NCBI GenBank assembly: GCA_002286715.1
Contig: NSJX01000080.1
Coordinates: forward strand, 7,155 to 71,154
Origin: Dentipellis sp. KUC8613
Taxonomy: Eukaryota; Basidiomycota; Agaricomycetes; Russulales; Hericiaceae
Length of the DNA: 64,000 nucleotides
Direction of reading: 5' to 3'
Shown here: piece by piece, positions 31,641 through 53,785 of the stretch
Layout of the letters: the number at the start of each line of letters is the position of its first letter
How positions within the stretch are numbered: the stretch's first letter is position 1
The notes under the pieces: generated by a model
The model's input: only the letters and a program-made list of their open reading frames with translations
The model's database searches: none
Told to the model about the DNA's origin: nothing
Position numbers and translations under genes: made by a program

Positions 31641-32390
31641 TTAATCTGGGAAACTCGAGCTTGAGGCCATGGCGTGCGACGAATGGCCAGAGCCTGAAGT
31701 GTATGTAAACGAGAGTGGTTGGCTGTATCGGAGATAATTCAGACCAGTATCTTCATGTAATAGTGGGGTATAGTTTGAGGTGTGCACTTGTGGATGATTT
31801 GCGACTTGTGAAGGACCCATTTGACTGTATCCATGAAATACGGCTGGGTCGGGTGCTATGGTTCCACCACGGAACCCTGGGTCGGGTGAGGCAGTCTCTT
31901 GGAATGATTCGGGGAGCTGTAGGAGTCCATGCTGCATTGGGTTGATAGGTGGCTGCACCAGTGTCCGTGTTCGGCTACCTGGCGGCCACAGTGACGCAAA
32001 TCGAGGATCCAGACGAAGAGCTGGGCACTCGTGGAACCGGACCTCGATGCAGTGACGGAGATCCTTCATGTTTCCATCTTCAGAAAGAGAAAGAGCCCAT
32101 GCGACATCCAGCAGATCGGATTTTGGCATAGCCTTCAGCAGTTTACGACCCGTGAAGTTGATTTTATCGCGGCCAACAGAGCGACGTTTGAGCATATCTG
32201 CGAGAGCGACGGCTTTTTTATCGCTATTCTGCTGCTTCCGGGCCTGCTTTTCAGCTCGTTGGATGGCCTGTTCATGCACAATCTTCTTTCCCTCTGCACT
32301 TGAGATAATGCCACTAGTAACATGGACGTTACGACGCTTTTTGGTTGTTTTTGAATTAAGCTGCCGTTGAAGTCCTTCAATATGTCCGCG
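31641..32390 (-). pseudogene. 3' part of a pogo-like transposase gene, separated by insertion
   Basis: Minus-strand frame reading RGHIEGLQRQLNSKTTKKRR at its start, then HVTSGIISSAEGKKI, a Lys/Gln-rich helix, and KINFTGRKLLKAMPKSDLLD with VAWALSLSEDGNMKDLRHCI, a SAP-like segment. It ends in a Pro/Ser-rich tail at 31641. This is the C-terminal layout of agaricomycete pogo/DDE_1 transposase-like proteins, where a Lys-rich tail follows the DDE core. The DDE core is missing here and lies on the same strand 21 kb away (56142 to 53779). The break falls at the GTCCGCG repeat, so the gene was split by the mobile element. Confidence 0.8.
32384..32390. repeat. Target-site duplication, left copy (GTCCGCG)
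   Basis: GTCCGCG is repeated exactly at 53779-53785. Joining the pogo gene across one copy restores a continuous, family-like reading (THCVLARG followed by HIEGLQRQL). KDZ/Zisupton elements are reported to make 8-bp duplications; an eighth base would differ here. Confidence 0.75.
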
Positions 32391-32423
32391 CACACAATGC
32401 AGTCGATCAGGTACATGTTAGAC
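32391..32423 (+). repeat. Left imperfect terminal inverted repeat
   Basis: Starts CACACAATGCAGTCGA and ends with AGGTACATGTTAGAC. The reverse complement of the right end starts GACTTAGTTCAGCGA and ends with AGGTAACATGCTTGAC. CAG, CGA and the AGGTA(A)CATG core are shared, with a 6-7 bp length difference between the two blocks. Confidence 0.6.
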
Positions 32424-32470
32424 GGTAGACCCCACCTGACAACGGGTTAAGGTACCTTGACCAGTCGATC

Positions 32471-32839
32471 TGGGCCCATGTACATAGTGATAGTGTATAC
32501 CAATGAATGGGCCCATGCCCTCCATCTTCCATTCTGGTATGTTGGGCCCACGCTCCCCATCTGGCCTTCTGTCATGTTGGGCCCAAGCCTCCATGATTCT
32601 GATTCCATTGGGTGGGCCCACGCCCGTCTAGTATGGTAGATAGCCGCAATGTACCTGGCTGGGCCCATAGTGTCATACCTCCTTACGCATTGATGGGCCC
32701 ACAATCAGGACTATCATTCTTGATTCGTGGGCCCAATGAATGCTGTCTCATGTATGGTGGTTGGGCCCATGGCCAGTCTGTACCGTCGGACATAGGTAGG
32801 CCCAGGATATCGCGATATCGTGTGGGATAGATGGGGCCA
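32471..32839. repeat. Left subterminal array of TGGGCCCA palindromes
   Basis: Nine exact TGGGCCCA copies start at 32471, 32508, 32543, 32578, 32613, 32660, 32694, 32728 and 32762, followed by degenerate ones at 32797 (TAGGCCCA) and 32832 (TGGGGCCA). Spacing is 34-37 bp with one 47. The DNA between the copies is not repeated. This looks like regularly phased protein-binding sites, a usual feature of large DNA transposons whose transposase binds subterminal repeats. Confidence 0.85.
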
Positions 32840-33569
32840 CCCTCGGGGACTGACTTAGACAGATTTGTTGCTGCTGTGAGATTGCCCGTCCCAGACCAGT
32901 CGTCCTTCCGTCCAGGGTGCGACTCGACGAATGAGAAGAAAAGAAAGAGCCTGCTACAAACAAAACGCGGTTCAATCCGACGAATTCATGAAGGATTGCA
33001 GCGTTCAGTTGTTATTTCCATTGTTTTATGTCGGAATTCTCACTTGATAGGCAACTCCTTTTTTTTTGACGAACCAAGAGAGAGATTGACTGGTATATAT
33101 GGGGTAATCGACCTTGCTCAGAAAAAATATGAAAAGGCTCTAAGCACCTCGGCTCAGGAGTTTAGCTAGCTTCTGGCCGAAGATGTCGCACTCATTAGCC
33201 GCGGGTATTCTGTGCTATAAGCACGACCACAGAGATGCCCGCGGGTATACGATGACATGGGGTAGGGTCTCCTTACTCTCGAGGCAGGTTATGGAATCGT
33301 GCATAGTCATACATTTATGAATTGGAGTGAAACATATCCATGGTTTATGCTACACTGTATGGGTCAATCAACCCAAGTTTCGCTCGCGAGAAATATCTCG
33401 GACCATGATATTCCCGCGGGCATTGTTTTTGTGTGAACAGGTCACAGTTTCGTATGCCTGTGGGTACCTTTGAAATTGCATAACAGACGCCATAACTACA
33501 GATCGTATGTCACGCAATAGCATAAGTAATCATTATCGCTGGAAGCCGGTTACAAGAGAGTCATGGCTA
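32840..33569. other. Left element spacer with CCGCGGG palindromes
   Basis: No gene is seen. It contains AGCCGCGGGTATT (33198), ATGCCCGCGGGTAT (33235) and TTCCCGCGGGCATT (33411), the first members of the dispersed palindrome family. Confidence 0.6.
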
Positions 33570-34644
33570 CTAATTTGCTCCGGTACTCTCCTGTCGAAGG
33601 AGCCAGAGCCTGCGCAATTCTAAAGCCTCCAGCTTGACATCCCTGGTCATCTCGTACATAGCCATGTTCATTTTCATCATGTGTGTGACACGGGCCTGCT
33701 CTGCAGCAATAGCCTCTCGGGATACTATGAGAGGGAACCTGTTCAGGTTTGAAGGCGGCCACAGAATTTCCTCCCAAGGCAAATGGGGAGTAACCTTTGA
33801 GAACGTTATTCGGCGGGATACACAAAGTGAGTGTATGCACGTACCAATTCTGGTTGAGGTGTGGGGTGTTCGTCCCTCACGAATCGTGAGGCTGACCTGG
33901 GTTTCGCCTCTCCGAGAATCTCAATGGAGGGAGACCTGCGTCTGCCCTCGGTCCCATCTTCTCCCTCGGTGCCACTAACGTATCGTGGAGACTCTATTTA
34001 CATGTATAATGCTCGTGAGCGTAGAATACACAGAAGGGTTTCGCTGACAAACCTGCTCCTTCATCCTTAGCTTCCGTCTCACTAAGGTGAATGCCCGCGG
34101 GCATCGCTGTCGGGATCGATGGCTCGATAGAATGCTGATCTTGAGGGGCAGGAGATTGACCATCCCGTTCTAAAAATGATAGGCCTTGTTAGTCACTGCT
34201 GCCCACCTGTGAGATACCTTGTTACCTATTTTCTGTTGAGTGAAGTCGAACGACCATAGTCAGTAGGAGGACAAGATGAACTATGAAGGCTAACCGAAAA
34301 TTGATCGATTTGATCAGCACCCAGTGCAATTCTAAACATATCCTCTGGCGATAATTCATCTCCCTATTGAAGTTGAGACTGCATTTATGTCCAGGATCGA
34401 CGGAGATGTGTAAAATGCTTACTAGCTCATCCTCCTCCATCTTGACATCCATCGTGGTGGGCAATGTGCCATCAGACGCATCTGCCATCCCTTCTTGCGG
34501 AATAAAAGGCTGCAGCGGCTGCCCATGGATCGCCTGCAAATGCGATGGGGGAGGTTCCTCAGTCAGAAGTCGTACCATGTCCATCACGTCCATTTCGACG
34601 TCATCTTCGTTTACTGTAGGTTCAAGCGTCGAGTCAGATGACAT
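33570..34644 (-). CDS. Element accessory gene 1, small acidic protein of unknown function
   Basis: Minus-strand gene with at least five short exons. It starts MSSDSTLEPTVNEDDVEMDV; the first exon ends before a gtaagc at about 34424. Later exons give GDELSPEDMFRIALGADQID, a Pro/Gln/Ser-rich stretch with TAMPAGIHLSETEAKDEG, then RRRSPSIEILGEAKPRS, and the last exon encodes LPWEEILWPPSNLNRF with a helical end HMMKMNMAMYEMTRDVKLEA. The stop is at 33570. AMPAGI is encoded by a perfect ATGCCCGCGGGCAT palindrome (34091-34104). It is divergent from the next gene with 231 bp between starts, probably a shared promoter. Exon borders in the middle are uncertain. No domain is recognised. Confidence 0.55.
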
Positions 34645-34875
34645 CGGGCGTTTGAAATCCGGCCTGGAACCTACGGGACATGATGCAGCTCTCGTTGAGG
34701 TGTGATACTAGCTGGAGAGATGCGCTGGTGATGATTGAATTCGCGCCCACGTGATCTTGGCGCGGCGCGTCCGTGGAGTTGCCAAACTCTAAGTCGACTC
34801 GGTCATCTAAGGTCTCATCAATCATCTCGTCACCGCTAGCTCTTCACTTCCTCATTTTTCCATACATCGCTCAGC

Positions 34876-37800
34876 ATGGACTCGTACTCGAACCTGCAAA
34901 AATGCTTTCTCCGCCGCGGGGCTCGTATCGAATCAGCACATGCCGCTTGGCTATCCGCGGGCAAGCCAGACGATCAAGCTTGGTTTGCGGGCTTCAATTC
35001 TGAGAAGGTAAGGTCTCAGGCTTTACAGAATTGAATCATCTGACGTGTCGTGGAAGGAAACACTCACATCCGAGTTCCTCGCCGTCAACAAAGCCCATGA
35101 GACTCCCTACACGTCTTCGGTCGCGTGGAGCTTCCTGCGGAGAACTCTCCGGAAGTCTGTGACAATGGTCGAGATGGAGCATGTCCGTTCCGGGGACTCT
35201 GCATTGGAAGGGGTTCGCAAGGCTATGCCCGACTCTATTCTCAACACATGTGTGGAATGGCTGGACTATGAAGGACCGGGGGTTCCAGAAGGCGAGTCGA
35301 AGTGGTGGATTTTCGATAGTAAGTTCAATTCGCGTTTTAGTCATGGCATGATTCACAGTTAGCAGGTTGCGTTAGTGGGATGAAGGTTGTTGCGTCCACG
35401 AGCGCGAGCCCTATTCCGTCGACCTCTGTGCTGAACGTGGTCGCGGTGGCCGCCAGTCCCGAGAGGGATGTAACCATCGTGCCCATGGATACCGAAGATA
35501 GCCAGGTATCGCGTGTAGTATCGTCTCAAGACAATCGCAATGCGCAAGAGGGAACAGGTGTCCCAGATTCACACTGGGATGCGGCGAGCGGCGGTGTTGA
35601 TTTCGGAGCCCGGGCAGAGGAACGAGGTGTTGACATTGACCGGGAGTGGATGCGCCATGCGCAGTCGCCGCTGACTGCCCCATCTCCCGAGGACGTCATT
35701 ATGGATGGTGGTCCATCCGACGCTGGGTTGGTGGGCGAACAGGAGATGGGCGAATCGTCCCTTCAGGGCGGGCCTGCAGAGGGGACTCGGATGGATGTCG
35801 ACGGCGCTCAGTCCGCGTCGGGAAGAGAAACCGGAGGATGTGAGTATTCTCATCCCCGACCAATACTATGCTAACATGTCCGCGCCAGTGCCAGACCTCC
35901 GCCAGTCAGCCACTGACGGCACAGATGGTCCACCGGTGGACGCCGTGATGGACGTAGACGCAGACGGTCGCCCCGCAGGCGGCCATGTGTCGTCACCTAC
36001 ACCCGCTCTCCCCGCACGCACACACACTCCGCCTGCACTCGCCACACCGGCAGAAATCACGGCATTGCGAGCAGTGGCTTTGCCTGCGCCTCCACCCACC
36101 GTGCAAGCGCCTGCCTCGCCACCGCCCGCTATGCCCGTACCCACATCCGCTTTGCCTGCGCTCCCCTCCTCATCAGCAGCCTCGCTCGCACCCGATTTCG
36201 CCATGCAGACTTTGCCTGCAGCCCCACTGACTTCGCCGGCTCCTGCTTCGCCAGCTGGGCCCGCACCCGCACCCGCGCCCGCACCCGCGCCCGCGCCTGC
36301 ACCCGCACCCTCACCCGCGCCCACGCCCGCACCCGCACCCGCACCCGCACCCGCGCCCGCACCCGCACCCACATTTCCTGCGCCTGCTACACCATCCCAA
36401 GGACCGACATCGCCAGCAGCCGCCTTGCCCGCCCCTGCACCAGCTTTGGCAGCCTCGCCCCCTCCCGCGCTCCCTCCACCCACGTCTCCCAGACTCGCGT
36501 CTGCCCCTGACGGTCGGTCGACAAGGAAGTTCGGCCCTCCGTCGAAGAGGAAAGTCGAGGCCGCGGTCCCGCCTCGTCCTCGCCGAGGAAAGCGTGGTGT
36601 ACCTGAGGAAGCAGGTGTGGCATCTGGGTCGCAACCCAAAGCGAAGGAAGATGTGAAGGGGAAAGGGAAGGCCAAGGACAACGATTCGGAGGGCTCACTC
36701 AGAGCCGGAGACGCCCCGATGTCTGGGAAGAGACAGCGGCGGGTGATCCTCCGCATCACGCCGAAGCCTAGCGCAAATGCTGAGGAGGAGCAGGAAGATG
36801 AAGAGGTTGACGAACTCGACCAAGACTCCGACTACAACGCCTCTGGGAACAACACAAGCTCCAAGCGAAAGCGCCTGGCTTCGAATGTAGCCGCGGAAAC
36901 CACGGATCCCAGCGACGGTCAAGCTAGGAGGTCCAAGAGAGCGAAGACCGCCGTGGCCACAGCCGAGTCCTTGGCTAACGCAAAACCCAAATCGAAGGCC
37001 GCGGGCAAGGCGAAATCAAAGGGTTGGGCAACGAAGGATTCCGCGGAGACACGAAAGGTTGCGCTGAGTCTTGCAGTAAGTCGATTTCGCTTCGGAAGGG
37101 AACTCAATATTCATAATATTTCTCATAGGGCAAGCGCAAGTTCACTGACGCAGAAAAGGCATTCATGAAAGAGGCGGTGAAGCATGTAAGTTGATTTCTC
37201 AGCCTACGATTAACGATACATCTGACAAGTCTCAGCCCATCACGGGTTGCTACACATGCAAGGGGTGTAAGCTCACTTGCAATCCAGCAGAGTTCGGAAC
37301 CTCTTGTGGGCGATGCAGGACTTCCAAGCACAAATGCTCGTACGTCTCGAAGACCCGGCGTGCAAACGTTGACATGGACCCCTTCGAAATGTGGGAGTGT
37401 CTTGCGATGCACCCCCGGGAGCCCGTGCAAGAACTCCCTCCTGTTCCATACCTGCCGCCTCTCCACCTTGTCAAAGCACACAGACTGGACGTTACCGTCT
37501 TACTCGGACAGCTGCGAGCTCCCGCATCCTACGAGGAAGCCCTGACGCTCAAGTTCGATCCCTCCATCTTCCCTGTTGGCGTGTCGAACGCGAAGGAACA
37601 AGGGAGCTCAAGACAGGTGGTTCCCGCGGGCAATGTCGCTGGGCCATCGCAGCCAGGACATTTTGCATTCGGTGCAGTGGAGGCATCGTCTCCGCCTCCC
37701 CTCGCTAACCCTCCAACCGCCTCCACGCCAGGATCAATGTCTCGCGAAGGTAGCGCCGATGCCGACATTCGGCGAGCAAACATGGCGCTCAACAGCAAAA

Positions 37801-38120
37801 TGCGGACGCTCACCGGTATCGTCGAGCAACTGCGGAGTCGCGTCGATGGTCAGGCGTCCGACATTTCGGTCATTCAGACCGACATGTCATCTATGAAGCA
37901 AGAAGCTCAGGCGCACAGGGAAAAGGTTGACCAGGACATGGAGGGGCTTCGAAAGGCTTTCAGCGACGCGCAGCTCGGCATCAATGGCATGAACGACGCC
38001 CACAGGAAAATCGACGACTGGGTCTCCGAATCGAGATCAAAGACTCAAGCTCTGGAAGAGACTTTGGCCCGATTGTTGGCGAAACAACCTGCCTTCCAAC
38101 CACCGCCATCTTCGTCGTAG
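34876..38120 (+). CDS. Element accessory gene 2: cysteine-cluster coiled-coil protein, paralogue of the 9.7 kb gene
   Basis: Exon 1 (34876-35007) encodes FLRRGARIESAHAAWLSAGK and exon 2 has SSVAWSFLRRTLRK, EWLDYEGPGV and a WW pair, the same N-terminal module as the gene at 9732. A long disordered part follows, with an Ala-Pro dipeptide run encoded at 36247-36372, basic NLS-like RSTRKFGPPSKRK and KSKAAGKAKSKG, and short exons. Then comes a cysteine cluster: CYTCKGCKLTC, then CGRCRTSKHKC, with spacing that resembles a Zn2Cys6-type finger. The end is a long coiled coil (KMRTLTGIVEQLRSRVDG). The layout suggests a DNA-binding protein that may recognise element or target sites. This is inference; the family itself is not one I can name. 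Confidence 0.68.
36247..36372 (+). repeat. Ala-Pro coding minisatellite
   Basis: An in-frame run of near-exact cccgca and cccgcg hexamers encodes about twenty Pro-Ala dipeptides inside accessory gene 2. It is a low-complexity linker likely to vary in length. Confidence 0.8.
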
Positions 38121-39090
38121 AGGCAAGTCAGATCTTGTGGACCGTCTTTAGCATACCCGCGGTTATCAGCAATTCGTCTCGAATCGTCGAGCTTTGACGA
38201 TCTCGCATTATTCTCCGTTCCCTTTGCTTGCTAGGACTATTATCCATGTATATACTATATGTTGTTCATCATACCTCTCCCCCTGATCTATCGTTTCACT
38301 AACAGTACCTCTTGCTTTAATAAACATCGTTCAACTTACCCCTGCGAATTGCCCGCGGGAAACAGTAATAGAAGCAGTAACGCTTTCGAACGAGGAAAAG
38401 TCGGGTAAACGACAGCACCGACAAGAGTCTGTCTGAGCTACAGTTATTAAAACAACTTCGGGAGTACAAAGCTGCAGCAAAGAGAGCCCGCGGGTATCGA
38501 TCCACAGTAGAAACTCCGGAATCCTGCAAGTCTGAGGTAGCCGCGGGCATATGTGATTCAACTTGCTGGAAGACCGTAATCTAATCAGGAGGTACGCAAT
38601 GCATCACTCCTCCCCTCTGGCCCGGCTGCTCGTAGCATGTTGCCGTGTACCCTCCAAAATCAAATTAAAATTGACCTGATCCTCTAAATGACTTCGGGAG
38701 TACAAAGCTACAACAAAGAGTGCCCGCGGGTATCAATCCACAGTAGAAACTCCGGAATCCTGCAAGTCTGAGGTAGCCGCGGGCATACGTGATTCAACAT
38801 GTTCCAAAACTGTAATCTAATCAGGAGGTACACAACGCATCACTCCTCCCCCCTAGCCCGTCTGCTCGGAGCGTGTTGCCTCTTACCCTCCACAATTAAA
38901 TTGACATCGACCTCATCCCTAGCCTTTCTTGCCGATCTCGGCTTCGATGCAAGTCGGTCGCTGTAAGGGACCGTCGCATGCTTATATTTTTTTGTTTGTC
39001 TCTCTGTAGGTGCTTCGGTCTCTGCCAAACGCCGTTTTCCTACTGATTTGTCAGATTTCCGCGGCGACCACAGAGGGTAAGGAAAAGCCC
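38121..39090. other. Spacer between accessory genes 2 and 3
   Basis: No gene is seen. It holds several CCGCGGG palindromes and a 235-bp tandem duplication. Confidence 0.6.
38456..38925 (+). repeat. Two-copy 235-bp tandem duplication
   Basis: Copies start at about 38456 and 38691, both with ttcgggagtacaaagct, and match at roughly nine bases in ten. Each contains two palindromes of the CCGCGGG family (GCCCGCGGGTATC and TAGCCGCGGGCATA) at the same offsets. The palindromes are conserved while neighbouring bases differ. Confidence 0.85.
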
Positions 39091-42000
39091 TTAGAGGCTG
39101 TAATTCTCACCAATGGCAGCCGCCGATTTCTTGTGGTTGGCCGCGGGCTTCTGAGGGGCTTGGTTCTGAGAGCTTCTAGGAGTTGCTTCACCTCGACCTG
39201 AGGATGTTCCCGCTCTTTGTTTTTGTCCCAGTCTGGAGGTTCCCGACACCACCTGACGGCTACCTCCGTCCTGTCGCAGCTGTGTCGTCACGGCGGTTCC
39301 CGCGGGGTCAACGTTTGGAGTCGACTTGTCCTGTTGGCCTGGCCAGTTCTTCTCAGAGGTTTGACTAAATTGAGATCGGCCATCCAGCACGCTTTCAACC
39401 GCTGCCGCAGAAGAAGAGGCTGAGTGAGACTCTGGAATAGTTGGGAGATTGGGTCTATGAGTGAGTGACTCCCTTTGCGGCAACGGTAGTTGTACAGTAT
39501 CAGTCCGTTGGGACGCATTTGCTGCTCCAGGGTTTTGAGAAGACATAAAGGAGGGATGAGATAGTAGCCACTGAATAGGGTCCATTTGATCACCGCCATC
39601 TTGTGTGTGGGGGAGGACTGGTGTGTTCTGATCGAAGACAGGACTTCCTTGGTACTGGGATGGGCCGGGGCGGAGGTACGCCATACTTCCATGAATGTGA
39701 GAGCTTTCTGGGAGCCCTTGGTACGACGAGTGGGCATGAAGGGGTTGTAATTCTAACCTTGGTTGTACACCAAGACCTGGGAACTGAGACCCTTGCCAGG
39801 GCTGTGGAGTTCTAAGATAAGGCCCTCCTCCATTGACCAGTTGATAGCTGGCAAAGTCCATGTTTTGGTGTCCAGAATCACCAGTCGGAAAAGACATGGA
39901 GGGACCACTGACAGCCGATATGGATCGGCCAGAGGCATTGAAAGTCTGCTCTGCCGGAATCCCCGCGGGTATTGAGGGAAGAAAGGTATGGGATGGCTGC
40001 GTCTCTCTAGTAGCCGCGGGCATTAATGAAAAATTTCCTGGTGAAGATGCATTCTTTCCTACGCCAGCAGAAAGCAAGCTGGGCGCAGTACTTGATGATC
40101 CGAGGCTGGTATGGTGATCGTTCCGGACAATCCGACTAGTAAATCGAATGATTGCCGGGTGAATGTGCCGTTCGACTTCATCTTCTTCGATGTCGCTTCC
40201 GACGATATAGGGTAGGAGCCCTATGTTACCTGCTTCCTCGTCCTCTAAAGCAGCCCACTTTGCGTTCGCATCATGGATCATATAAGCAAGGAACAAAAGA
40301 AGTTGTTCCAGAGACGTCTTGTCTCGTAAACCTCCCGTCTTCGGGTTGACCCAGGGATCTTCGGATAGCCAGTCGTTGATTTCAGAAAGACGCGCACGGG
40401 TATGAAAGCTGGGAGGGAGATACTGTTCATCGTAGGCCCAACCCGCAAATTCTTCAGCCCACTCTGAGGGCAACTTGAATCCTCCTGGGGCTCGAGTCCC
40501 GGGAATAGCCTGCCGTAGACCATAAGTATGGGCCAAACGGGTAACAAAACGCATAGCAATTCACCTTCAAAGAAGAGAACGCCGCAAGGAGGCTGTCAAA
40601 AACCTCATCTCCCCCACAAAATCCTGACAAAAACTTCAGCCTCGCATCTGAGCTTGCAGGGACGTCGCAAGGAAGCCTTGGTTGCGAGTGAGAGGAATAG
40701 AGGGACGCAGTCCCATCCAGAAGCCTTTCGAGCTCATCATAGTGCTCCTTGTCGTTGTGGCCTTCCATCCCGCCGTCGTCGTCTTCTTCGTCCTCGTCCT
40801 GCTTGTCCAGGTCTTCATCGAATTCTGCGTCAATATCTCGGAGGTCGTCCTCATCAATATCCGGTATGTCCTCTTCCGCACCATGCGGAACCTGAACCTC
40901 TTCTTCATCCGACTCATTGGTTTGCGTTCGAGCTACCGCGGATTGCCCGCGGGCATTCCCTCCTCGTCGCCCGCGTGCTTGCTGATTTGCCCGGCCTGCA
41001 CCAGCACAGCGGCCCCTCTGACGAGATGTTTGAGCAATGGCAGAAGAGGACTCCAGGGGTTTGTCCCATGCAGGACGCAGTTCCCCTGTTCCGCCTTTAG
41101 AGTTTAGTCTGACGTTCTTGAATTGAAACGTCCGAAGCCCTGAAGCTTGTCGAGCGTCCCAATGACGAAAAATCTTCTCCAAATGAGCTGTCTTTATTTT
41201 CGCAGGGTCTGCTTTGTTATCAGACCAGTCGTAATTGTTTGGTAGATATATATCGACGTCAAAGAAGGCGGAATCAGGTTGCCAAACCTCGTTCCAAGGC
41301 ACAGCGACACCTTCTCCCTCTCGTGCGATGTCTAAGATTGCAGCTAAGAACACGATGGAGCAGAATTAATTGAAACACGTACCATAGTGGGCTTGAACAA
41401 ATTTTCTGAGGAACTTCTTTCTGGTCAGAAGCTGTGAGTTGAGCAACGTCTGCAAATCAGGCATTATAGGCCATCCCGTGGTATCGTATTCAAAGATGAC
41501 GTCGGGTTCCTGCTTTCGTAGTCCCTCGGCAGCATTCTTTGCCTCTATCCGATGACGTGTCAAGATGGTACCATAGTATCGGTGAAAAGACTTACTCCAC
41601 ATACAACAAAGATAGTCACGCCAATATTCTTCACACCCGCAATTCTCGGCGGCTGGGTAAGCCTTTCGGAAAGACTGACATCCATTGAACTCCCCCGCCT
41701 TGTCGATTCTGAATGAGACAGAAGGACTAAGTACTGAACAAATAAATGAGCTGCTTTACACAACGTACACCGCGCCGACGACCTCGTCATCTGCATCAAC
41801 GAAGCCGATCCTCATGAAAAGCTCCACTCCCAGATTGTCATGCATGGCCGCGGCGAATGCGTGGCAGAGCCGTCGGGCATTGTCTTGAGCACGACTTCGT
41901 GTTTTCAGGTCAGATACCATAGCCATGACAAGAACTCGAGGGCGTACGATTTCTTTATCTCATCTGGGATGGCTTTCTTCCAGGTCTTCGCTTCCTCCAT

Positions 42001-42647
42001 GCATTCCATCTTGACCTCTGGATTCCTCTCGCCGAACAAAGTGATGGCCTTCTGATAGAATTTGATCCAACCGGGGTCTCCGACCTTGATGTCGTACTCA
42101 TCCTCAAGGAGTTGGTATAGCTCCTGTTTCCGTGTCTCTCCCAGTACCACTCGCCAGTCAGGACGACGGAGGAGGGACATCTTGGGTGCAGACGGTCTCT
42201 CGCATGAGTGATTCCGGAACCAGTTGGTAATTTTCTGAACAGCGCAGGCGATTTATTATGCTTGTTAGTGGACGTGACAAAGAGATGGTCCTAGGACGCA
42301 CCTTGATCAAGACCCCCATACCCTGCTCCCATGGATCCCAATAAGACCCATCTCGAGTTCGTATCTGCCGGACACAGTCCTTCACCAACAAGTTCCGTTT
42401 TGGACTATCACCGTCCTTCCAGATAGCGAGCTTTGGAGAGAGTATCGCCTCGATAGTGGCAACAGAGATTCTCCGGTCTTCAAGCGGTGTGTTGACGTTA
42501 TTAGTGGCCGCGGGCATCGTCGAAGATAATTCTGGAGCGGGAGACGCGATGTACTGTATGGTGGGACGCAACGAAAGGAAAATTGGTATTAACCCCTACC
42601 AATACTTTCTTGGATCCTTGCCTTAGCCCGGTTGCCATCTCAGTCAT
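39091..42647 (-). CDS. Element accessory gene 3, large protein of unknown function
   Basis: Minus-strand gene of about eight exons and roughly 1,050 aa. It begins MTEMATGLRQGSKKVL (42647), then YIASPAPELSSTMPAATNNV, IEAILSPKLAIWKDGDSPKR, LRRPDWRVVLGETRKQELYQ, MHDNLGVELFMRIGF, FHRYYGTILTRHRIEAKNAA, and DIAREGEGVAVPWNEVWQPD. A long Asp/Glu-rich tract follows at about 40740-40890, then VTRLAHTYGLRQAIPGTRAP and a long Ser/Gln/Pro-rich tail ending at 39091. MPAATN, MPAATRE and SIPAGIPAE are all encoded by CCGCGG-type palindromes. No domain is recognised. The acidic and Gln-rich composition suggests a chromatin- or transcription-related role, which is a guess. Confidence 0.6.
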
Positions 42648-42689
42648 ACCAGGCCTGGCTCAGATGGTCAGCCGGAGATAGATATGAAT

Positions 42690-43390: not shown

Positions 43391-44727
43391 ATGTCCATAG
43401 ATCCCTCCCTCCACTGCGAAGAGACCTATAGAATATGCGGTCTGGTTCCTCTCATGTCCCGCTATGTTCGGGACAGATTTTTCAACCGGTTGGAGCAAAC
43501 TGCGGCTGAAAAATCCGGAAAGTCTTCTCCGCCTGACATCCCGCGTCCCATGGAATTGCGAACGGAAATCCTCCTGGACCTCGATGTCGCCGTTGACCAG
43601 ATGGCGATAGCAGTCCATAATCCAGGTGCGACTCCCGGCTATTCGTTTTCGTCTTATCCTCACAAAAATTGTAGTGAAAGTTGATTGGGACGCGGAGAGG
43701 TATGCCTCGGGCAAACGAGGGAAGGACAGCGAAACCTTCGCCTTGAAATATCCGCCTCTGGAGGACCAGGAAGTCAGGGAGCTGCCCTGTGTTGTGGTGG
43801 ACGTTCATGAGGTGATTTTGGCCTGGCACCTTCCAGCAGTCCTTTCTGAGGAACGACAGGTAAGCCATGAATTCGAAGATTGTAGTACTTCTAGATCCAC
43901 GCCCTGACGAATTCTTCGAATAGCGAGATCTGGAGGAGGCTGCCAGACTCTTGCAGCCGATGCTCGTCGTGGGCTCACCCCAGAAACATCGCTCTGGGAA
44001 GACTATTGGCCGCGACGACCCGTCGCAGTTTCTCTCTACCGAGGAGAGCAAAGATTTTCGTGGTATCGTAACCCTTTCGCCCGCTTGGTATCAAGCTGGA
44101 CACGAGGTAATGTGGAATTGTCGTGATCCTGCTCCGTTTCTTCGCTGATAAGAGGGATAGGGACCACAATTCCAACCCGAGATCTCCGCCTCACTCAAGC
44201 CAACGAATAAGAGACAAGAAGGTAGACTCTGCCTCCGAAAGATCGCGGAGACATGCGCGATCATCAACGCATGCATGATCGTTATGCACCCCGCCCTCTA
44301 CGAAGCCGGATTTGAGGTCATACGCGATCTCCGCAGCAAACCAGACTTCTATCCGGTCATTATGGAGTGGGTATCCATCTTCAACGGAATACAAGTCATT
44401 GTCAATCGGCGGACGAAGCCTCATGTCGACGGTCATACTAGATCGCCATGGTATGATGTTGTCTGTTCGGTCGGGCCGTACACTGCCGCCATATTCGGGC
44501 TTCGGAAACTTGGGGTCTATCTCGCCTACCCACCTGGAACCTTGATAGCTCTTTGTGGTAGCTTTTTGGAGCATGAGGTCCCCGATTTCGATGGTGAGCG
44601 AATATGCTACGCGTTCTTCATGCGAGATGCTATCCATGAACTCCTTGGAAAGAAATCGCCTGGCTGGATGTACCGAACACAGTACATAAATCTTCACTGT
44701 TCTCCTCCCACTACTGCCCCAACATAA
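43391..44727 (+). CDS. TET/JBP-family 2-oxoglutarate/Fe(II) dioxygenase
   Basis: TET/JBP enzymes oxidise 5-methylcytosine, or thymine in JBP, in DNA. Four exons: 43391-43625, 43675-43859, 43924-44106 and 44161-44727, giving about 389 aa. The catalytic core lies in exon 4: NRRTKPHVDGHTRSPWYDVV holds the H-x-D iron ligands. YTAAIFGLRKLGVYLAYPPG matches the fungal TET/JBP strand order. GSFLEHEVPDFDGERICYAF holds the distal His and the Arg that binds 2-oxoglutarate. All four key residues are present. The frame is open upstream to 43202, so a longer N-terminus is possible. It is encoded on the same strand as and just before the KDZ transposase (266 bp), matching the known fungal TET/JBP-KDZ partnership. 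Confidence 0.88.
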
Positions 44728-44993
44728 TCACGTAGTACAGTAGCTTTTGACTACTCTGTATCCTTTCCTTTAGTCTTCTAAACTACTACTTTGACTAATG
44801 CAATTTCTCGTCATCCCAGTCTCTCACGTGCACATCACGAGGCCGCGGTCATCATGCAACCTCGTGTTGAAGGCACGAGGTGACGGGACGCCTCGGAGCA
44901 TGAGAAGTCCAAAGCCCCTTGCTCTAGACGACCGTATACAACGACTCTGTGACTGGATATCTATCCGTCGTCTACCATCTTACAACAGCGGCG

Positions 44994-47900
44994 ATGACTC
45001 GTTCCCCTCCGAGACCCAGGATCAAGAAGCTCAAAGGCGGGCATCTAGAACACTATGGAAAAGTCGGGGACAATCCGGCCAGGCGATCTCGTCAAATCGA
45101 ATGGATTGAGAAAACAACCACCCGCGGTGTCCGGTACATCGAAAAGGATGTTACCGATGAGAGGCGGTCCTCGCAGAAGGCTGGAAAGTCGAAAGTCAAG
45201 AATGCCCGCGGGGACTCTGTTAGAGAGTTTCTCGGGACTCAGAGCATTGACGAGCGCCTCTTGTCTGATGAGAATACTCATGGTGCTCAATCACTGGTAT
45301 GTAAAGCTATTTGATTTGCTATACACGCACCCCTGACGTTGTTCTAGGGGCAGCACGATTATCTGCACCAGTGGCTTCAACTTCGAGGCGAGTTTCTCCA
45401 CCGACTATTAGATTCAGAAAAGGCACCAACTACAAAAATATGCCCTGGCTGTCACAAACGCCCTGCCCTTTGGAGATGCAAGGACTGCCTTGGTCAGCCT
45501 GTCGAATGCGACGTTTGCTGTGTGGATCGCCATTGCCATCTTCCATTTCATCGAGTTGAGAAGTGGCAAGGAGACTTCTATGCGCCTGCTTGGCTACGAG
45601 ATGCTGGGCTCAAACTTTATTTGGGCCATGGTGGCAGTCCCTGCCCATGTGCATCCCCGGTCATTCCAGAGAACCCAACATCGTCATCCTCAAATAAAAA
45701 CGATTCCCGCGGGCAATACGACGACCTCACTGAGGAGGAGACTGAATTGGCCGAGGAATCAGAGAATGATACTTCGAATCCGGACGAGCTTCACTTCTTT
45801 ACAAGCTTTGCACCAGAGAGCTCCTGTGATAGAGACGGAAATCCTCTACTTCTTTTGATCGACTCATCAGGCGCTCACCAGCTGAATGCAGTCTGGTGCA
45901 CTTGTGAAACTGCCGCGTCACATGCAATGCAACTGTTTGATATGGGGCTTCTTCCAAGCTCATTCAAAGCTCCTCGTACGGCTTTCTCGTTTCGTGCTCT
46001 CGATGAATTTTACCTGGCAAATGTCGAGTGCAAAATGACGGCTTACCATTACTATCTCCTCATTCGGCGTAGAACAAGCAATGCCTTTCCTCATGCTGTT
46101 CCGGTTAGCTACTCTGCTTGACTGTTGGGTCTGTTTTTTGACTAACCGCTTCCTATACCAGAATCGATATCGAGAGCTATTGAGGGTGTCCCGTCAATGG
46201 GCAGACTTGAAGGCTCGGAAATGGGCCGGAGATGGATACGACGACTATGAGGACTCCCCAGGTTCCCTTGCGACCCCCTCCTTTTGCCCGACATGTCCTC
46301 AGCCAACTCATAATCTCCCGGAGAACTGGAGAGAAAATCGGGATCCCCGAAGGTGGGTACTACTCTCATCGCCAGTTCTATTCAGGTCTAATTCGCCATA
46401 GATGGATATATTATAGGTTTTTTAACGGAGACGGCAACATGAAATTGACAATGGGACCAATGAAGAAACCAGAAAATGATGTGGCTCTCAGCGATGGTCA
46501 AGGATACATGTCAAATGAAGAAGTATACAACAAGCACGTGGCAGATGCGATGACTCGATATGATCCGAAGACGGGTGATGTGAGTAACGATCTATGGCTT
46601 TGGATTCACAAGCCAAATGGTATGGCCGCGGGTGTTGTATGGCCATAGGCAATGTATGGCCGCGGGCACCATATGGCCGCGGGCATCCTATGGCCGCGGA
46701 TGATAGCCGCGGGCATACCTTTGCAGGCAACTGCGGACAAACGATCTCGAAAGGGATCCTGCCACTTATTTGTTGGGATATATTGTGTTGTTTTTGATAT
46801 AGAAGCTCTAACGAATTCTCATTTCAGAGAGCTACCTGTAATCGACATAAAGCGGCGGACCAGAACAAGAAGGGACGTCGGAACGCCCATTTTACCGGAG
46901 TAGGGGCCGTTTCGTGCTCTCACGGGTTCTTTTTCCCAGCATCAGTGGTTAACTTTCTCGTCTCCGAGCGGTGAGAAGTTTTTTTATCAATGTCTCTTAT
47001 TTTATAATTGACAAATACCAGACAAATGTATATGGACTTTGCCTACAACGGCGCCTTCTGTTATCGGATGGAGGGAATTGAAGACGCCGTCATCCTCTAT
47101 GACATCATATGCCAATACGGAGTGCACTTTCTCAAGAGGTTGTTCGAGGGAAAGTATTTGAGGAATGTACCGGACGAGCTGACCATTTGCCATGCGATCG
47201 GATTGTTCCATGTTCACGGCCACGTCGACGGATGCATCCCCAAGTTCTCCCCCACATACATGATTGGTGGGCGGCAGATCGATGGAGAAGTAATTGAAAC
47301 CTTATGGTCCGATTTGAATGGCGCCGCAAGGAGTACAGGGGGAATGACCGTCTCTCATAGGCGAGAGAACTTGGACAGCCACATATCAGATTCGAACTGG
47401 AAAAAAAAGGTGAAATCGAGTAAGTCTGCAGCTCTCTGATCCGAGCAGAAAAGCACTCATCATGTACAGCCTCGACCCTGAAGAGAAAGTATCGGGAAGG
47501 GAAGCTAGGTTTAGCTGCGGCGGAAGAGGAGTGGAGACGCGTCCAACATGCAACTCGTCCGGAGGACGCTGAGCACTGGGGTACGCAGGAGATTGAAGCA
47601 TTGCGAAATCGAGAGGATGATAGGGACGGGATGCTTATATACAACTCTATGGGAATAAAACGTGAGTCCTTCGTGTCCGAGGCTACGACGACATTATCTC
47701 ACGACATTTCTGGCGTTCTCAGCTCCGAGCAGGGCCCAGATACTGCTTGAGTTGAATGAAAAGGAAGAAATGGCTGGAGAAATCACTGGACGAGCTTCAT
47801 GGATAGCCGCGGGTATGAAGATCCAAGAGGCACAGTAAGTCATACGGTATCAACAGGGTCATGTCTATGCTAATTTATTTGCAAGGCTTCTGCTGGCAGC

Positions 47901-49019
47901 CTACGTCCGTCGACTTGGAAAGTCGCCTTCTACAGCTGAGAAAAATGACCTTATTGATCGCCGTCGCCGCCTGAAGACGAGGATAGACGCCCTGAGCCGA
48001 TCCATGTCTGAGGCCATCGGAATAACACCTGAAATTTCTGAAAGCATATTGGGGTACGATGGCTTCCAGGGCTCAGAGTTTGATGAGGTGACTGGGGATG
48101 AGGCAGTGGGGGTCCAGCCGTACCACGGTGATGGTGCTGGATATGCCCGCGGAGAAGGAAACCCTTATACCCACGGGCAACGGATACAGATTGAGAACCA
48201 ACAGCTCCCGCTTCCCTCAAGCTTTGGAAAGAAGTGGAGAGAGGATGCAGATCTCGGAGACGCAGTGGCCGACGAAATTTCCCTCCGAAAAGGACAAGCT
48301 AACAATGCATTGGAGAACCTCCGAATGGCGCTAGCCCATAAAGCCACTACCTACCGGGTAGACATACGTCCGGCGAAATCCCAAGCGGAGATGCAGAAAG
48401 CATGGCGAGCTTTGAATCAAGTGGAGAACAGTGTTCAGCAGCAAGCTCGCATATACACGAAAGCTCGATTTTCCCTGATACGTCTAGGTGCAGATGCGAC
48501 GACGCTCGCAAAATATCGGCTGCTGGTTCCCGCGGACATGCGAGTGGAGACTGCCCTGGTGGACCCGCATGCCCGCGGGAATAGAAATGCAAGTCGATCC
48601 TGGATCTGGTCAACGGACATCCACGATATTCAGGATCAGGGTGAATGGTTACGTGATTGTAAGTATGGCTACCTCACGACGCTGCATTCCAAACTGATCA
48701 TAAAGGATTAGTCTACAGAGTGACTTGGCTTCGAACAAAAGCGCGATATAACAGATGGTGTGAGCAGATGGTTGTCCTGCCATTTGAAATGCAATGGACG
48801 ATTGCGAGCTTTGAGAATTCAGCAGAGCTTTGGTGTAGTAGGGCGGAGCAATCTCAAAGGAACAAATTCCTTGGCCACCAGGCCTATGCAAGAAGGCAAG
48901 AGGCAATGTGGAGACAATTTGCCTGTGATGCAAGACAAGCGTTTATTGAAACTATTGGAGAGGACAACATGCTTCGGTGGGGACTTCCAGGAGAGGAAGG
49001 GGACGAGTACAATTTGTAA
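44994..49019 (+). CDS. KDZ (Kyakuja-Dileera-Zisupton) transposase with CxC2-type cysteine cluster
   Basis: Ten exons: 44994-45296, 45348-46103, 46162-46352, 46402-46579, 46828-46970, 47022-47419, 47470-47661, 47723-47834, 47886-48658 and 48712-49019. The product is about 1,120 aa. The N-terminus is basic. Exon 2 carries the cysteine cluster CPGCHKRPALWRCKDC with ECDVCC and HCHLPFHRVEKW, the CxC2 type linked to KDZ transposases. The core has FFNGDGNMKLTMGPM (first Asp), VILYDIICQYGVHF (second Asp), GLFHVHGHVDGCI, and GEVIETLWSDLNGAARSTGG (Glu), consistent with an RNase-H-fold D-D-E site. The C-terminus is long and helical. No frame break was found. It converges with accessory gene 4, only 27 bp away. 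Confidence 0.9.
46580..46827 (+). repeat. Palindrome-rich intron of the KDZ gene
   Basis: This 248-bp intron is four to five times longer than the other introns of the gene. It contains five CCGCGG sites between 46623 and 46716, each in atggccgcggg or tagccgcgggcat context. It is the densest dispersed cluster outside the right-hand array. Confidence 0.8.
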
Positions 49020-49046
49020 CATAGAGCGCGGGCAATATATACGACT

Positions 49047-50625
49047 TTACTCCTCTGTCTGGACTCCTCTTTCTTGTTGTCGCTTTGATCCGCCAAACTC
49101 ATCGTCAAGAAGCTGCTGAACCTTCGCCCTTTTCAACTCCAGTTCCCACCATTCCTTGTACAGGGACCTCGCCCTCACCATCTTCTCGTTACAATCGGCA
49201 TCTACAGTTGTGATGATTCGATGTAGATGTTGATAAATCGGATCCTCCATTCTCCTCTTAGACCTGATGAGCAAGTTCAATATGATGCATTCAAAATACG
49301 AACTCACCCTCTCTACTACCTCGACTACACAAGTCATCGTTTCATTGACGATTTCTGGTGTCATTTTCAAAGAGGGAAGGGGATCGGGAGTTAGCCACCA
49401 TTCCGTAGCGGCGAAGGTAAAGTCGGGTTTCACGACATTGAACTGCTTCTTGTAATCCTCGAATGCTGGAGCTCCCTGTAGCCACAACTCAGTCAAGTAC
49501 ATGAGGTTGTGGTCGAGCGCGTGGAGGCAATAAGGAATGTAGGGTCGTTGCCCAGCCAACAACCCCAAACCTATGATGACAGATGCAGATGCCTGTGATA
49601 AGAACAGTGAGATAGAATCTACCCAGAGTGTAATACCGAGAAACCATTGGCCGCGGGGATTCCTCGACAGGAACGGATACCCGCGGGCATCGTGGGGATG
49701 AGTGATAAACAACCTTGCGGGCAATGTCTGATCCCAAGTGTCGTTCCAGTCTTCAAGAGAAAACATACACACCATTTCGTGATACAGACAGGCCTCCCAA
49801 AAGTTCCATCGATGCGTTCCAGGTTCCCCGATAGTTTGAAGGCCCTGTTCGATGCGCCAAACTATACAGTCTAATACTTTGTCGGAAAGACGACCAGGAC
49901 TCTCAGGGTATGCTCGTCTAGACATAGCCTTAGTTACGGGTGGTAGATGTAGGAGATAGAAGGCATCACTGGAGTGGCAAATCCTCCTCGCTTTCCCAGT
50001 CCGCCTCTTCGTTGTCCATGGCTTTCGCAGACCAGTCTTCTGAACAATGGTCGGAATCCTGGTCTTCATCAACATCAGAGTGGTGCTCGGAAGGGGGTGG
50101 GGAATCCACAATGTCGTCTTGAATCTACACCCTGTGATTGAGACAGATACACTGCAATATGCAGACGCACGACTCTACCTCCTTGTATCGAGATAATCCT
50201 TCTCCCTCCCTGCCAGCGTCGCGCAAAGCGTCTCTGAGCTCCTGCCTTGCACAATGTTGAAGACACGCCAGGGTGCCTCGGGTATCAGAGCTATCGGAGT
50301 AGCTTGCTGCAACAACCCGCTTCCTGTGCTCCTGTTCAAAGATGTCAATTCAGCTCCATTCCTCAGTGGCTATTGATTTAACCTTGACCCAGTACTGTAG
50401 AGGAATGAGTATACAAGAAGCATTCGTCGTTAAACATTGTCTTACCTCTACCCTCTCTGCCTCCGTTCTCTCCAGGTGTTCTTCTTTGTCTTCGGGGCTG
50501 TCATCCCTCTCCGGTTCAAATGCTCTTGGACGAACGGAAACAGACATCCTTGCTGTGGGGGGTTGCCTCCCCATACTCCCTCCACGAGCGAGGGGACGTC
50601 TGGCCACATTCTTGGTACGAGGCAT
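49047..50625 (-). CDS. Element accessory gene 4, unknown protein
   Basis: Minus strand. Exon 1 (from 50625) encodes MPRTKNVARRPLARGGSMGR and an acidic/basic stretch. The next exons give HRKRVVAASYSDSSDTRGTL and IQDDIVDSPPPSEHHSDVDE. A 54-bp intron (gtgatg to tctag, about 49975 to 49920) joins EEDLPLQ to RAYPESPGRLSDKVLDCIVW. The large 3' exon is Trp/Leu-rich: FWEACLYHEMVCMFSLEDWN, FLGITLWVDSISLFLSQASA, and a helical end KEWWELELKRAKVQQLLDDE. The stop is at 49047. No known domain is recognised. Arrangement next to the transposase suggests a helper role, which is inference. Confidence 0.62.
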
Positions 50626-50750
50626 AGTTGGATCGGTCGTCAGTGCGTGGGATGGGGAAAGCGCAATCGCCAAGGCGCAACTCTGAGCAAGAAAGACCTT
50701 TGTTACGTAACACATTGTTTCGCGCTTGCTACAGAGTGCACATATGTAGA

Positions 50751-51779
50751 TTACTCGCGTATATTACTGGGTCCCTCTCCCTGCGGATTTAAAGCCTCCC
50801 CCCCGAACACGTGTGAGAGAACCTGCATCCCGCCTTTAAAGTACTCTAGCTGCTCTCTTGACTGTATGACACCGTTTCCCGCGGCCATATCCAGAGCTTC
50901 GGCCAATTTGCACAAACGATCTATTACGGCGGTCAGTTCTCCATCGGCTTCGTCAGAACCCGCCTGAGATTCTTCCATCGATTTAGGCTTAGTGGAGAGC
51001 CCTCACATCAGTATGTGAGACACAGCGGAAGGTAGAGCCTCGTACCTCGCAATATAGTGCAGACGCAATGTCGAGGACGGCGGTTGGTCTGGAAATCGGG
51101 AAGAAATCACGGAGTGATCTCTCTTCCTGACAGCTGTCGAAAGGAGAAAGCCCGCGGGCTTGAGTCTCGAAATCGAGTTCTTCTTGCTCATACTCCTCCC
51201 CGCTCAAACACTCCTTCTCATCGTCTTCACTTGAATTTTCAGATTCCAAAGGAATCTCCTCCGAGTCGGAAAGCTCCGCTGCAGGTCCTGGGTAGCGGTG
51301 CATGAAGTCGACGATTTCGCCACTCATGTGGAACTCAGATCGAAAGCGCTCCACGATCTCTCTAGGGATATAAGGGAGATATGACGGTGGGACAGCGATT
51401 GTCCTGGCGTTGGGTGGGAGTGGGATGTCTTCTCGGAAATGCCTTTGATAGGGCCACGGCCCTTCACGGCGTAGCTGGCGTCTTGCGACCCCAATGGCAC
51501 TGGCTCCAACGGATGCCGCCAGGCGATACTACTAAGTTGAGTTAAGACGTTATCTACAAACGGACCATCACTCACCCATAGCCCTGCATCTCCCTTTGTG
51601 CTGAACTCTCGACCTTCTTGCTTCTGAAGCCTGATCCGCTTCAAAGTGATAATTTGAAGCTTCCTTCGCGCTGAGGCCAATCCGATTATCGTGCAATCCT
51701 TCCGCGCCATGAATTCTAGATTACGAGGTCGATGGTAATATGCTGGAGATGGAGAGTCGTCTCGGTGGCTAGGGTTCAT
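50751..51779 (-). CDS. Element accessory gene 5, unknown acidic protein
   Basis: Three exons on the minus strand, about 310 aa. It starts MNPSHRDDSPSPAYYHRPRN; the first intron (about 51573 to 51528) leads to YRLAASVGASAIGVARRQLR and the conserved-looking PPNARTIAVPPSYLPYIPRE, then an acidic Glu/Asp/Ser tract. The second intron ends with ctaag, which alone keeps the frame into PKSMEESQAGSDEADGELTA. The last exon has LDMAAGNGVIQSREQLEYFK, where MAAGN is encoded by a CCGCGG palindrome, and ends at 50751. It lies head-to-tail with accessory gene 4 with 125 bp between them. Function is unknown. Confidence 0.6.
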
Positions 51780-52331
51780 CGTGTGTCAGACGAAAGGCGA
51801 AAGGTACATGACAAGGACTAAGCCGGACAGACGGGTGCCAGGAATGGTAACGATGACATCATAGTCCGAACAACAACCTTATCGTGTTAAAATGGAGATC
51901 CAATAGCGACGAGCACACTTGCATGCATAATCTGGGAATGTCAAAATCAGAAGGTGTAGGGAATTGCAAGCTGTACTTCAATCTTGACTTACGGAGGATC
52001 GTTGTTGAAAACGGATGCCTGCGGGCACATCAAAATGTTCATAGAGGGAATGAATGGACATCCATAGTTTTTACAGAATGGCTGCAGGAATATATGGTGT
52101 TAGTTTACCACTTGCAATAATGCTACACAGCTCACTATCATACGAACCACTGGCCTCTAAATCAAGGCTACCTGCAATTGCCCATGGAGGTTCTCACTCT
52201 GTAGATGGGAAGACTGCATGTATCTTGGAATGATTCGGTAGTGATCCACGCTGTATGACATCCTGTCCAATGTATCCAACCAGCTGACAAAATTTAGAAA
52301 CTAGATACCACGGCTGATGAAGAGTACATAA
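51780..52331. other. Right element spacer
   Basis: No gene is seen in about 550 bp. It includes one palindrome variant (atgcctgcgggcac near 52016). Confidence 0.5.
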
Positions 52332-52929
52332 GACATGCCCGCGGCTATTCAGTGCAGTGGAGGCATGCCTGCGGCTATTGAACATAGCGGAGACATGCGC
52401 GCAGCTATCTAACCCAGTGCAGACCATGCCCGCAACTATTGAAGGCAGCGGATACATGTACACAGCTATTGAACACAGCGCAGACATGCCCGCGGCTATT
52501 GATCGTGGTGGAGACATGCCCGCGGCTATTGAGGGCTGTGGAGACCATGCCCACAGCTATTGAAGGCAGGGGATACATCCACAAAGCTATTGAACACAGC
52601 GCAGACATGCCCGCGGCTATTGAGGGGAGTGGAGACATGCCCGCGGCTATTGAAGGCAGCAGAGACGTGCCCGCGGCTACTGAAGGCAGCAGAGACATAC
52701 CCGCAGCTACTGTAGGCAGCGGATACATGCCCACAGCTATTGAACGCAGTGCAGACATGCCCGCGGCTATTGAACGCAGCGCAGACATGCCCGCGGCTAT
52801 TGATATTGATCGTGGTGGAGACATGCCCGCGGCTATTGAGGGCTGTGGAGACCATGCCTGCAGCTATTGAAGGCAGTGGATACACGCACACAGCTATTGA
52901 AGGCAGCGGATACATACCCGCGGCTAGTG
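52332..52929 (+). repeat. About twenty 30-bp tandem repeats built on ATGCCCGCGGCTA
   Basis: The unit is close to GACATGCCCGCGGCTATTGA plus about ten variable bases (aggcagcgca type). It repeats about 20 times, with decayed copies where CCGCGG has become cacag, gcgcag or caaag. The core equals the reverse complement of TAGCCGCGGGCAT, which is scattered elsewhere in the element. Open frames across the array exist on both strands but only reflect a unit length divisible by three. Confidence 0.9.
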
Positions 52930-53177
52930 GAAGTGAGAAAATAATATCCACGCCCTTTTGCTGTCAGGGCAGCCAGGGTGGTCAGGGTGGTCAGGGCGGC
53001 TTGCGGCCATTGACTGTTGAGGTGGTGGCAGCTCTTAAATGGTAGAAACAAAAGATTGTATTTACTTAAGCCGCGATCATCAATGTAATTGTCAGAGGCC
53101 ATAAACAGACTGCAGGCTGCATGGACAGGCCATGACCTGGAGGTATACCCGCGGCCATCCAGAGAGACTAGGTCCGG
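52930..53177. other. Short spacer between the two right-end arrays
   Basis: No gene. It contains a cagggtggt triplet-like repeat at about 52966-53000 and one CCCGCGGCCAT site near 53150. Confidence 0.6.
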
Positions 53178-53698
53178 TGGGCCCATCGACCAAAAGGGAG
53201 CATAGCTCTGTGGGCCCATCATCATATCATGAGGGAAAGACAGTCGCCCATGAATATCGCTGGATAGGCCCAGCGATGCAGGTTGGAATATATAGGCCTG
53301 GGCCCATCAACAAAGACGACGAAATGTTAACATGGGCCCAGCATGGGAGGCGGCCTTGAGTTACATGGGCCCAGCAACCTAGGACAATTCTGCTCATGTG
53401 GGCCCACCATGGCGCGATGGTTTCACTGCTAAGTTACTGATGTGGGCCCATCATCGTGCCATGGATATCCGAATGTGGGCCACGCAATGTACGACGAACT
53501 CACTTGACCATGGGCCCATCAACTTAGAATGATCCACTTAGTCCTGGGCCCATCTAGCAAAGACAGCGGACGATCGAGTTGCTTCTGATTGATGCCATCA
53601 CTGCACTGATCAACACATATGGGCCCATCAACCGTGATGCTACTAGCATTCTCATGGGCCCACCCTGTTAACATATAGCTATATCTACCGTGGGCCCA
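53178..53698. repeat. Right subterminal array of TGGGCCCA palindromes
   Basis: Exact copies start at 53178, 53211, 53299, 53333, 53366, 53399, 53443, 53511, 53545, 53620, 53655 and 53691, with degenerate ones at 53265 (TAGGCCCA) and 53476. Most intervals are 33-36 bp; the larger ones fit two periods or a lost copy. It mirrors the left array at a similar distance from the element end. Confidence 0.85.
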
Positions 53699-53738
53699 CA
53701 TGGGCTGACCATACATGACTGCTGCAATATGCTCTGGG

Positions 53739-53778
53739 GTCAAGCATGTTACCTAAATGACCCTCGCTGAACTAAGTC
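53739..53778 (-). repeat. Right imperfect terminal inverted repeat
   Basis: The reverse complement reads GACTTAGTTCAGCGA at the tip and AGGTAACATGCTTGAC inside, matching the left end as CAG, CGA and AGGTA(A)CATG.T.GAC with a short length difference between blocks. Confidence 0.6.
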
Positions 53779-53785
53779 GTCCGCG
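53779..53785. repeat. Target-site duplication, right copy (GTCCGCG)
   Basis: Identical to 32384-32390 and located where the pogo coding sequence resumes. Confidence 0.75.

Follow-up and report, generated by a model that had tools for sequence, protein, structure and literature searches.

How does a transposon that carries a methylation-oxidising enzyme avoid waking all the other transposons of its host? The locus described here bears on this question. It lies in a stretch of 64,000 bp from the wood-decay fungus Dentipellis sp. KUC8613 of the Hericiaceae, Russulales (the window; C151:7155-71154 in a genome of 34.1 Mb and 171 contigs) and holds a complete transposon of the KDZ superfamily with a gene for a TET/JBP dioxygenase. 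A preliminary description, made from the letters of the window alone, had proposed the element and its ends. We find that the element also carries a dispersed palindrome private to its family, which might serve as an address for proteins encoded by the element.

A complete element with defined ends

The region 32391-53778 is confirmed as one complete TET-bearing KDZ transposon, a mobile unit. The features which define it are, in window positions:

32384-32390, left target-site duplication GTCCGCG, an exact repeat of 53779-53785
32391-53778, plus strand, complete element of 21388 bp, 5'-CACACA...AAGTC-3', with ends shared with independent pieces on contigs C45 and C116
53779-53785, right target-site duplication GTCCGCG
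53786-55243, minus strand, upstream part of a pogo-like gene (DDE_1, 66.4 bits; joined frame and paralogue), which continues at 32390-31641

The 7-bp repeat had been noticed before and is exact, and a second copy now confirms, to the nucleotide, the boundaries proposed with it. When window 30001-57000 was used as query against the genome and extension past the ends was allowed, the piece on C45 began at exactly 32391 and the piece on C116 terminated at exactly 53778. Both pieces have CGTAGTC as their outer flank. We therefore take them to be the halves of a single second copy that has a 7-bp duplication of its own, is divided between two contigs and whose middle part is missing from the assembly. 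A further copy sharing both ends, which the preliminary description had proposed looking for, is thus present, and the two insertions have different duplications, GTCCGCG and CGTAGTC. A relic left end is found on C88. The left flank (31600-32400) has a single place in the genome.

The host gene had been described as split by the insertion, and this agrees with what we find: joining the flanks at one duplication restores a single frame of 735 amino acids (aa) without a stop on the minus strand, and an uninterrupted paralogue on contig C118 aligns with it gap-free across the junction (342/638 identical). An empty site had been suggested as a check, and in its place we use this paralogue, which belongs to the Dentipellis genome itself; an uninterrupted gene has been found, but a paralogous and not an orthologous one. 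The related inverted ends that had also been reported did not hold up. Outside the palindrome arrays treated below the inverted likeness is not significant, as 16% of 2000 shuffles reach the same score, and terminal inverted repeats were rejected there.

Nor is a whole element with exact ends new, as had been supposed, since Kojima 2025 (PMC12730594) reports TET+ Kyakuja elements that are complete, have CA..TG ends, are flanked by 7-bp duplications and lack inverted repeats. With these the Dentipellis element has in common the KDZ and TET/JBP genes, a host among the Agaricomycetes including Russulales, the 7-bp duplications, the 5'-CA and the lack of terminal inverted repeats. It differs in its 3' TC instead of TG, in a Thr at the position of Gly331 of the dioxygenase, and in four accessory genes and two palindrome systems that have no counterpart in the main text of that paper. 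Neither subterminal palindrome arrays nor dispersed family-private palindromes were found in the consulted part of PMC12730594 or in the literature searched, a scope which did not extend to Iyer et al. 2014. TET+ elements of this type are already known; the dispersed signature is apparently undescribed.

Genes of the element

The window copy contains six genes that are open when spliced at GT-AG introns:

34876-38120, plus strand, gene D, 6 exons, 998 aa, Pro/Ala-rich, with a six-cysteine zinc-cluster-like motif and a coiled coil (splice model)
38840-42517, minus strand, gene A, 8 exons, 1094 aa, no known family (splice model)
43454-44727, plus strand, TET/JBP dioxygenase, 4 exons, 368 aa (Tet_JBP profile and splice model)
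44994-49019, plus strand, CxC2-KDZ transposase, 10 exons, 1117 aa (splice model, KDZ and CxC2 profiles)
49047-50625, minus strand, gene B, 4 exons, 452 aa, no known family (splice model)
50751-51779, minus strand, gene C, 3 exons, 307 aa, no known family (splice model)

The two enzymes stand on one strand as first described, and profile searches bear out both assignments: the transposase scores 135.1 bits with KDZ PF18758 (cut-off 26.6) and the cysteine cluster that precedes this domain 79.6 bits with CxC2 (cut-off 27), and the dioxygenase scores 54.7 bits with Tet_JBP (cut-off 34.9). The accessory genes are modelled as four (D, A, B and C) and not as five. An extra ATG is present upstream of the TET start, at 43391.

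The best solved relative of the dioxygenase is CcTet of Coprinopsis cinerea (PDB 7vpn; PMC11040006), to which it aligns with E 1.5e-25. The HxD and H iron ligands and the position of Asp337 are kept, whereas Thr replaces Gly331 and Val replaces the Arg between H and D; the Gly or Ser at 331 by which the AG type is recognised is thus absent. In CcTet N6-methyladenine (6mA) is accommodated through the missing side chain at 331, and Asp337 is essential for 5-methylcytosine (5mC) (PMC11040006). From these roles, and because Thr occupies the Gly331 position, it may be proposed that the enzyme of the element favours 5mC over 6mA, a suggestion to which we give somewhat less than even credence. A protein search for TET homologues found none: of 2138 candidates with shared words, not one reached E 1e-3. 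This is a limit of the tool, as CcTet is a clear relative.

Genes A, B and C match no Pfam family above cut-off, and a genome search in which the best candidates were scored located them only in the two copies. The deposited protein DENSPDRAFT_854954 is gene A; its first 655 residues and 6 introns are identical to our model and it differs downstream. No homologues besides two Dentipellis proteins were found for the first 684 residues of A among 7988 candidates scored, and a structure prediction from two sequences was unusable (mean predicted local distance difference test score 32). Gene D fits the zinc-cluster spacing CX2CX6CX8CX2CX6C in a pattern search. The coiled coil in its last exon, after the six-cysteine motif, is the sole confident part of the structure predicted for that exon, and residues 700-800 of D had no homologues among 16 candidates.

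Divergence of the two copies

Relative to the second copy, the ratio of nonsynonymous to synonymous divergence (dN/dS) is low throughout: 0.07 for KDZ, 0.15 for TET, 0.18 for A, 0.19 for the last exon of D, 0.25 for C and 0.26 for B. The splice sites of 24/24 introns compared are kept (A 7, TET 3, KDZ 9, B 3 and C 2). Synonymous divergence differs by gene (dS 0.09 for A, 0.17 for TET, 0.37 for KDZ and 0.40 for C) and so does the identity of non-coding sequence, which reaches 0.97 next to A as against 0.75-0.85 elsewhere. In most 400-bp steps of window 38811-43400 the C116 copy is 94-99% identical, non-coding sequence included, and in the rest of the element about 80-93%. This unevenness indicates recombination between element copies. 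C to T changes occur between the copies at a rate of 0.091 at CpG and 0.043 at other C, which is the pattern expected if the family was methylated.

It could be argued that the element is a dead relic, intact by chance, considering that the copies are old (KDZ dS 0.37) and that the second one has acquired stops. The window copy, however, has six open genes, an exact duplication and a stop-free pogo-like frame of 735 residues on joining, and we consider a relic very improbable.

Palindrome arrays beside the ends

Two arrays of the palindrome TGGGCCCA flank the interior of the element:

32471-32769, left subterminal array, 9 TGGGCCCA, spacing mostly 34-37 bp
53178-53698, right subterminal array, 12 TGGGCCCA

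Palindrome arrays had been noticed before, and the counts leave them standing: 21 TGGGCCCA in the element versus 2 in the other 42.6 kb of the window, where a Markov control (order 3, 200 sequences) gives a mean of 0.76 and a maximum of 4. Pairs of TGGGCCCA 20-32 bases apart number 35 in the genome versus 0 in the reversed control. They are found on C151 (14), at C45:2961-3422 (11), on C116 (8), on C88 (1) and at C45:564619 (1), and 33/35 are held by the two copies. The lone pair at C45 564619-564662 is perhaps another relic; the opposite end of that contig is about 3 kb away. The TGGGCCCA core is without CpG, and the observed/expected ratio of CpG is 0.65 and 0.71 in the array spacers, 0.89 in the element and 1.12 in the rest of the window.

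We propose that these arrays, with their CpG-free core, are the place where the CxC2-KDZ transposase or a partner of it assembles to cut both ends, which on the sequence is a probable arrangement. The identity of the element as a Kyakuja-like KDZ-superfamily transposon with an AG-type TET, potentially autonomous and moving by cut-and-paste, is taken jointly with the first step of the mechanism, and for the two together, leaving aside the address step discussed below, our confidence is high.

Large CACTA elements offer a parallel. The 20.5-kb soybean element (PMC2613891) is an example with similar size and asymmetric subterminal palindrome arrays beside short ends, and subterminal palindromes occur in CACTA elements together with a divergent accessory binding protein (PMC2613891). 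The CACTA elements differ in having another transposase, a 3-bp duplication and inverted terminal repeats (PMC2613891).

A dispersed palindrome

A second palindrome is dispersed through the body of the element and is also present in minisatellites:

33238-51158, 15 dispersed CCCGCGGG sites with extended consensus ATGCCCGCGGGCAT, at 33238, 33413, 34094, 37623, 38352, 38487, 38723, 39299, 39962, 40946, 45205, 45706, 48572, 49680 and 51151
46620-46699, 17-bp minisatellite with CCGCGG, within the 248-bp fourth intron of KDZ
52331-52926, 30-bp minisatellite of 19.6 units whose consensus has ATGCCCGCGGC

In a scan that looked, with no motif preselected, for 8-mers distributed across 250-bp bins, the top words in the element were CCGCGGGC (z 23.3) and CCCGCGGG (z 21.6), to be compared with 9.4, 7.8 and 8.8 for the tops of control stretches. 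There are 15 CCCGCGGG sites in the element versus 1 in the other 42.6 kb of the window; the Markov control (order 3, 200 sequences) has a mean of 1.6 and a maximum of 5. The 12-mer TGCCCGCGGGYA occurs at 18 places genome-wide, 8 of them in the two copies. A family-private motif is repeated in the element, as it is in the VANC system of Arabidopsis. Where genes D and A converge, at window 38455-38918, a segment of 236 bp that includes CCCGCGGG sites is directly duplicated, and extra matches there suggest that its copy number differs in the C116 copy.

The palindrome is well conserved between the copies. Comparable CCCGCGGG sites are unchanged in 11/12 cases, against 0.51 of all 8-mers. CpG transitions in the core amount to 3/140 versus 160/1644 for other CpG (p 0.001). 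With the minisatellites removed the figures are 2/112 versus 159/1628 (p 0.002), and in the reverse direction 4/128 versus 133/1614 (p 0.039); in non-coding sequence only they are 0/32 versus 54/372 (p 0.013), in reverse 0/36 versus 39/377 (p 0.037). In coding sequence only the difference is not significant (p 0.084 and 0.31). Such a footprint fits a protein-bound site, locally hypomethylated or not.

A simpler explanation is that this is an ordinary TET+ KDZ element whose palindrome is functionless: tandem duplication together with gene conversion would have multiplied it, and its conservation would be a side effect of recombination between copies. The motif is indeed present in the minisatellites and in the 236-bp duplication, and the block at about 38.8-43.4 kb with 94-99% identity implies that recombination happens. 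On the other hand, the majority of CCCGCGGG sites are outside tandem repeats, and the core is conserved beyond other CpG words and beyond its own flanks (28 CCGCGG sites outside minisatellites; differences 3/168 in the core versus 48/419 in the flanks). The palindrome could also be a real protein site which serves plain transcription control or transposition and not the targeting of demethylation. CCGCGG is an everted CGG repeat of the kind read by Pdr1/Pdr3 (PMC3091778), and accessory proteins can read subterminal and internal repeats of CACTA elements (PMC2613891). The position of 9/15 CCCGCGGG sites within coding sequence is however unusual for promoter sites, and we find this reading as a whole rather unlikely.

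Other TET and KDZ loci in the genome

The PF12851 profile finds nine places in the genome, seven of them above cut-off, and 7/7 of the latter are followed on their own strand by a KDZ match at a distance of 1.8-2.2 kb. The two Tet_JBP-like places below cut-off (C1 2538078-2538464 and C102 289002-289289; 26.3 and 26.0 bits) have no listed KDZ match nearby. A tree built from 14 KDZ core stretches of this genome places the seven TET+ stretches together with TET-free C26, at weak support, and the TET tree yields the same three pairs as the KDZ tree. The C26 gene (21725-22415) has no TET match, perhaps through loss or because the contig is truncated.

One other family with TET and KDZ genes, at C171 3564-19954 and C46 11117-20279, has a different dispersed palindrome, TCGGSCCGA, with 33 sites in C171 (z 23.5), 18 in C46 and 0 in the window; CCCGCGGG is found in C171 once in the 18 kb examined. 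Between the C171 and C46 copies there is no conservation footprint at TCGGSCCGA, and no zinc-cluster pattern was found in these stretches. No comparable dispersed motif was seen in C24 (top z 11.6 in part and 10.8 in the whole contig stretch) or in C84 (z 10.0; one part of 7.4 kb reached 13.5 with a GC-rich word whose sites are clustered), nor in the TET-free KDZ stretches on C101, C22 and C96 (z 10.4, 10.7 and 9.3). TET+ C1 was inspected over 6 kb only. A dispersed palindrome is thus found in 2/4 TET+ families examined, and as a trait of all TET+ families it is unsupported, C24 and C84 being without one. The missing footprint in the C171/C46 family and the missing motif in C24 and C84 also speak for a functionless palindrome, an explanation which may well be right and to which we assign only slightly less than an even chance.

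A possible address for the demethylase

In our proposal the TET enzyme would oxidise 5mC on the element and make it expressible in a methylating host, which we judge likely from the sequence. The reading of TET+ elements as escaping from silencing has already been put forward by Kojima 2025 (PMC12730594), where the AG type is also speculated to have no target specificity. The preliminary description spoke of a self-contained epigenetic system, a label which is an inference.

An alternative to unspecific action is that an element-encoded DNA-binding protein, with gene D as the best candidate, binds ATGCCCGCGGGCAT and thereby directs regulation, or else anti-silencing, to the element itself; this step is doubtful but could be correct. 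Anti-silencing would then stay confined to the element through proteins reading its signature, by an unproven analogy with VANC in Arabidopsis. More generally, TET-bearing KDZ transposons might address their demethylase by a family-private code consisting of a CpG palindrome and a co-evolving reader encoded by the element, with erasure confined to the element. It is suggested that the palindrome accumulates partly through tandem repeats. The code is suggested by two families with different palindromes and by the footprint in one of them, and we hold it as speculative, with the odds clearly against it.

Several observations weigh against the reading as a whole, from the identity of the element to the address step. 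The right end is TC in both copies, beside a 5' terminus CA, where the Kyakuja rule has TG, and the element is therefore a possible member of Kyakuja proper and no more; it should be noted that 5'-CA..TG-3' is given in Kojima 2025 (PMC12730594) for two Laccaria families. The C116 copy has in-frame stops when the exon borders of the window are used (1 in A, 2 in KDZ and 2 in B). Gene D scores only 10.3 bits with PF00172, below the cut-off of 21. Finally, with minisatellites included, the CpG transitions in the reverse direction are not significantly reduced in the core (10/160 versus 139/1636, p 0.37).

If the private code is real, fungi would have a counterpart of VANC/VANDAL in which the element also brings an enzyme. 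For VANC21 a nine-base motif, its accumulation by tandem repeats and a family-specific loss of methylation have been described (PMC5735166). VANDAL21 and the Dentipellis element share a short family-private motif which is repeated in the element, partly in tandem, and which differs between related families (PMC5735166). The Dentipellis element differs in encoding an oxidising enzyme and in having its motif also in coding sequence. With a private conserved palindrome and a candidate reader in one element, the alternative to unspecific AG-type action becomes directly testable.

Two minor observations concern other contigs. Five distant relatives of gene D (29-39%) lie on both strands within 22 kb at C80 496141-517411. 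At C24 29593, on the same contig as another TET+KDZ element, there is an open frame of 286 aa in which the cysteines are spaced in a manner resembling a zinc cluster.

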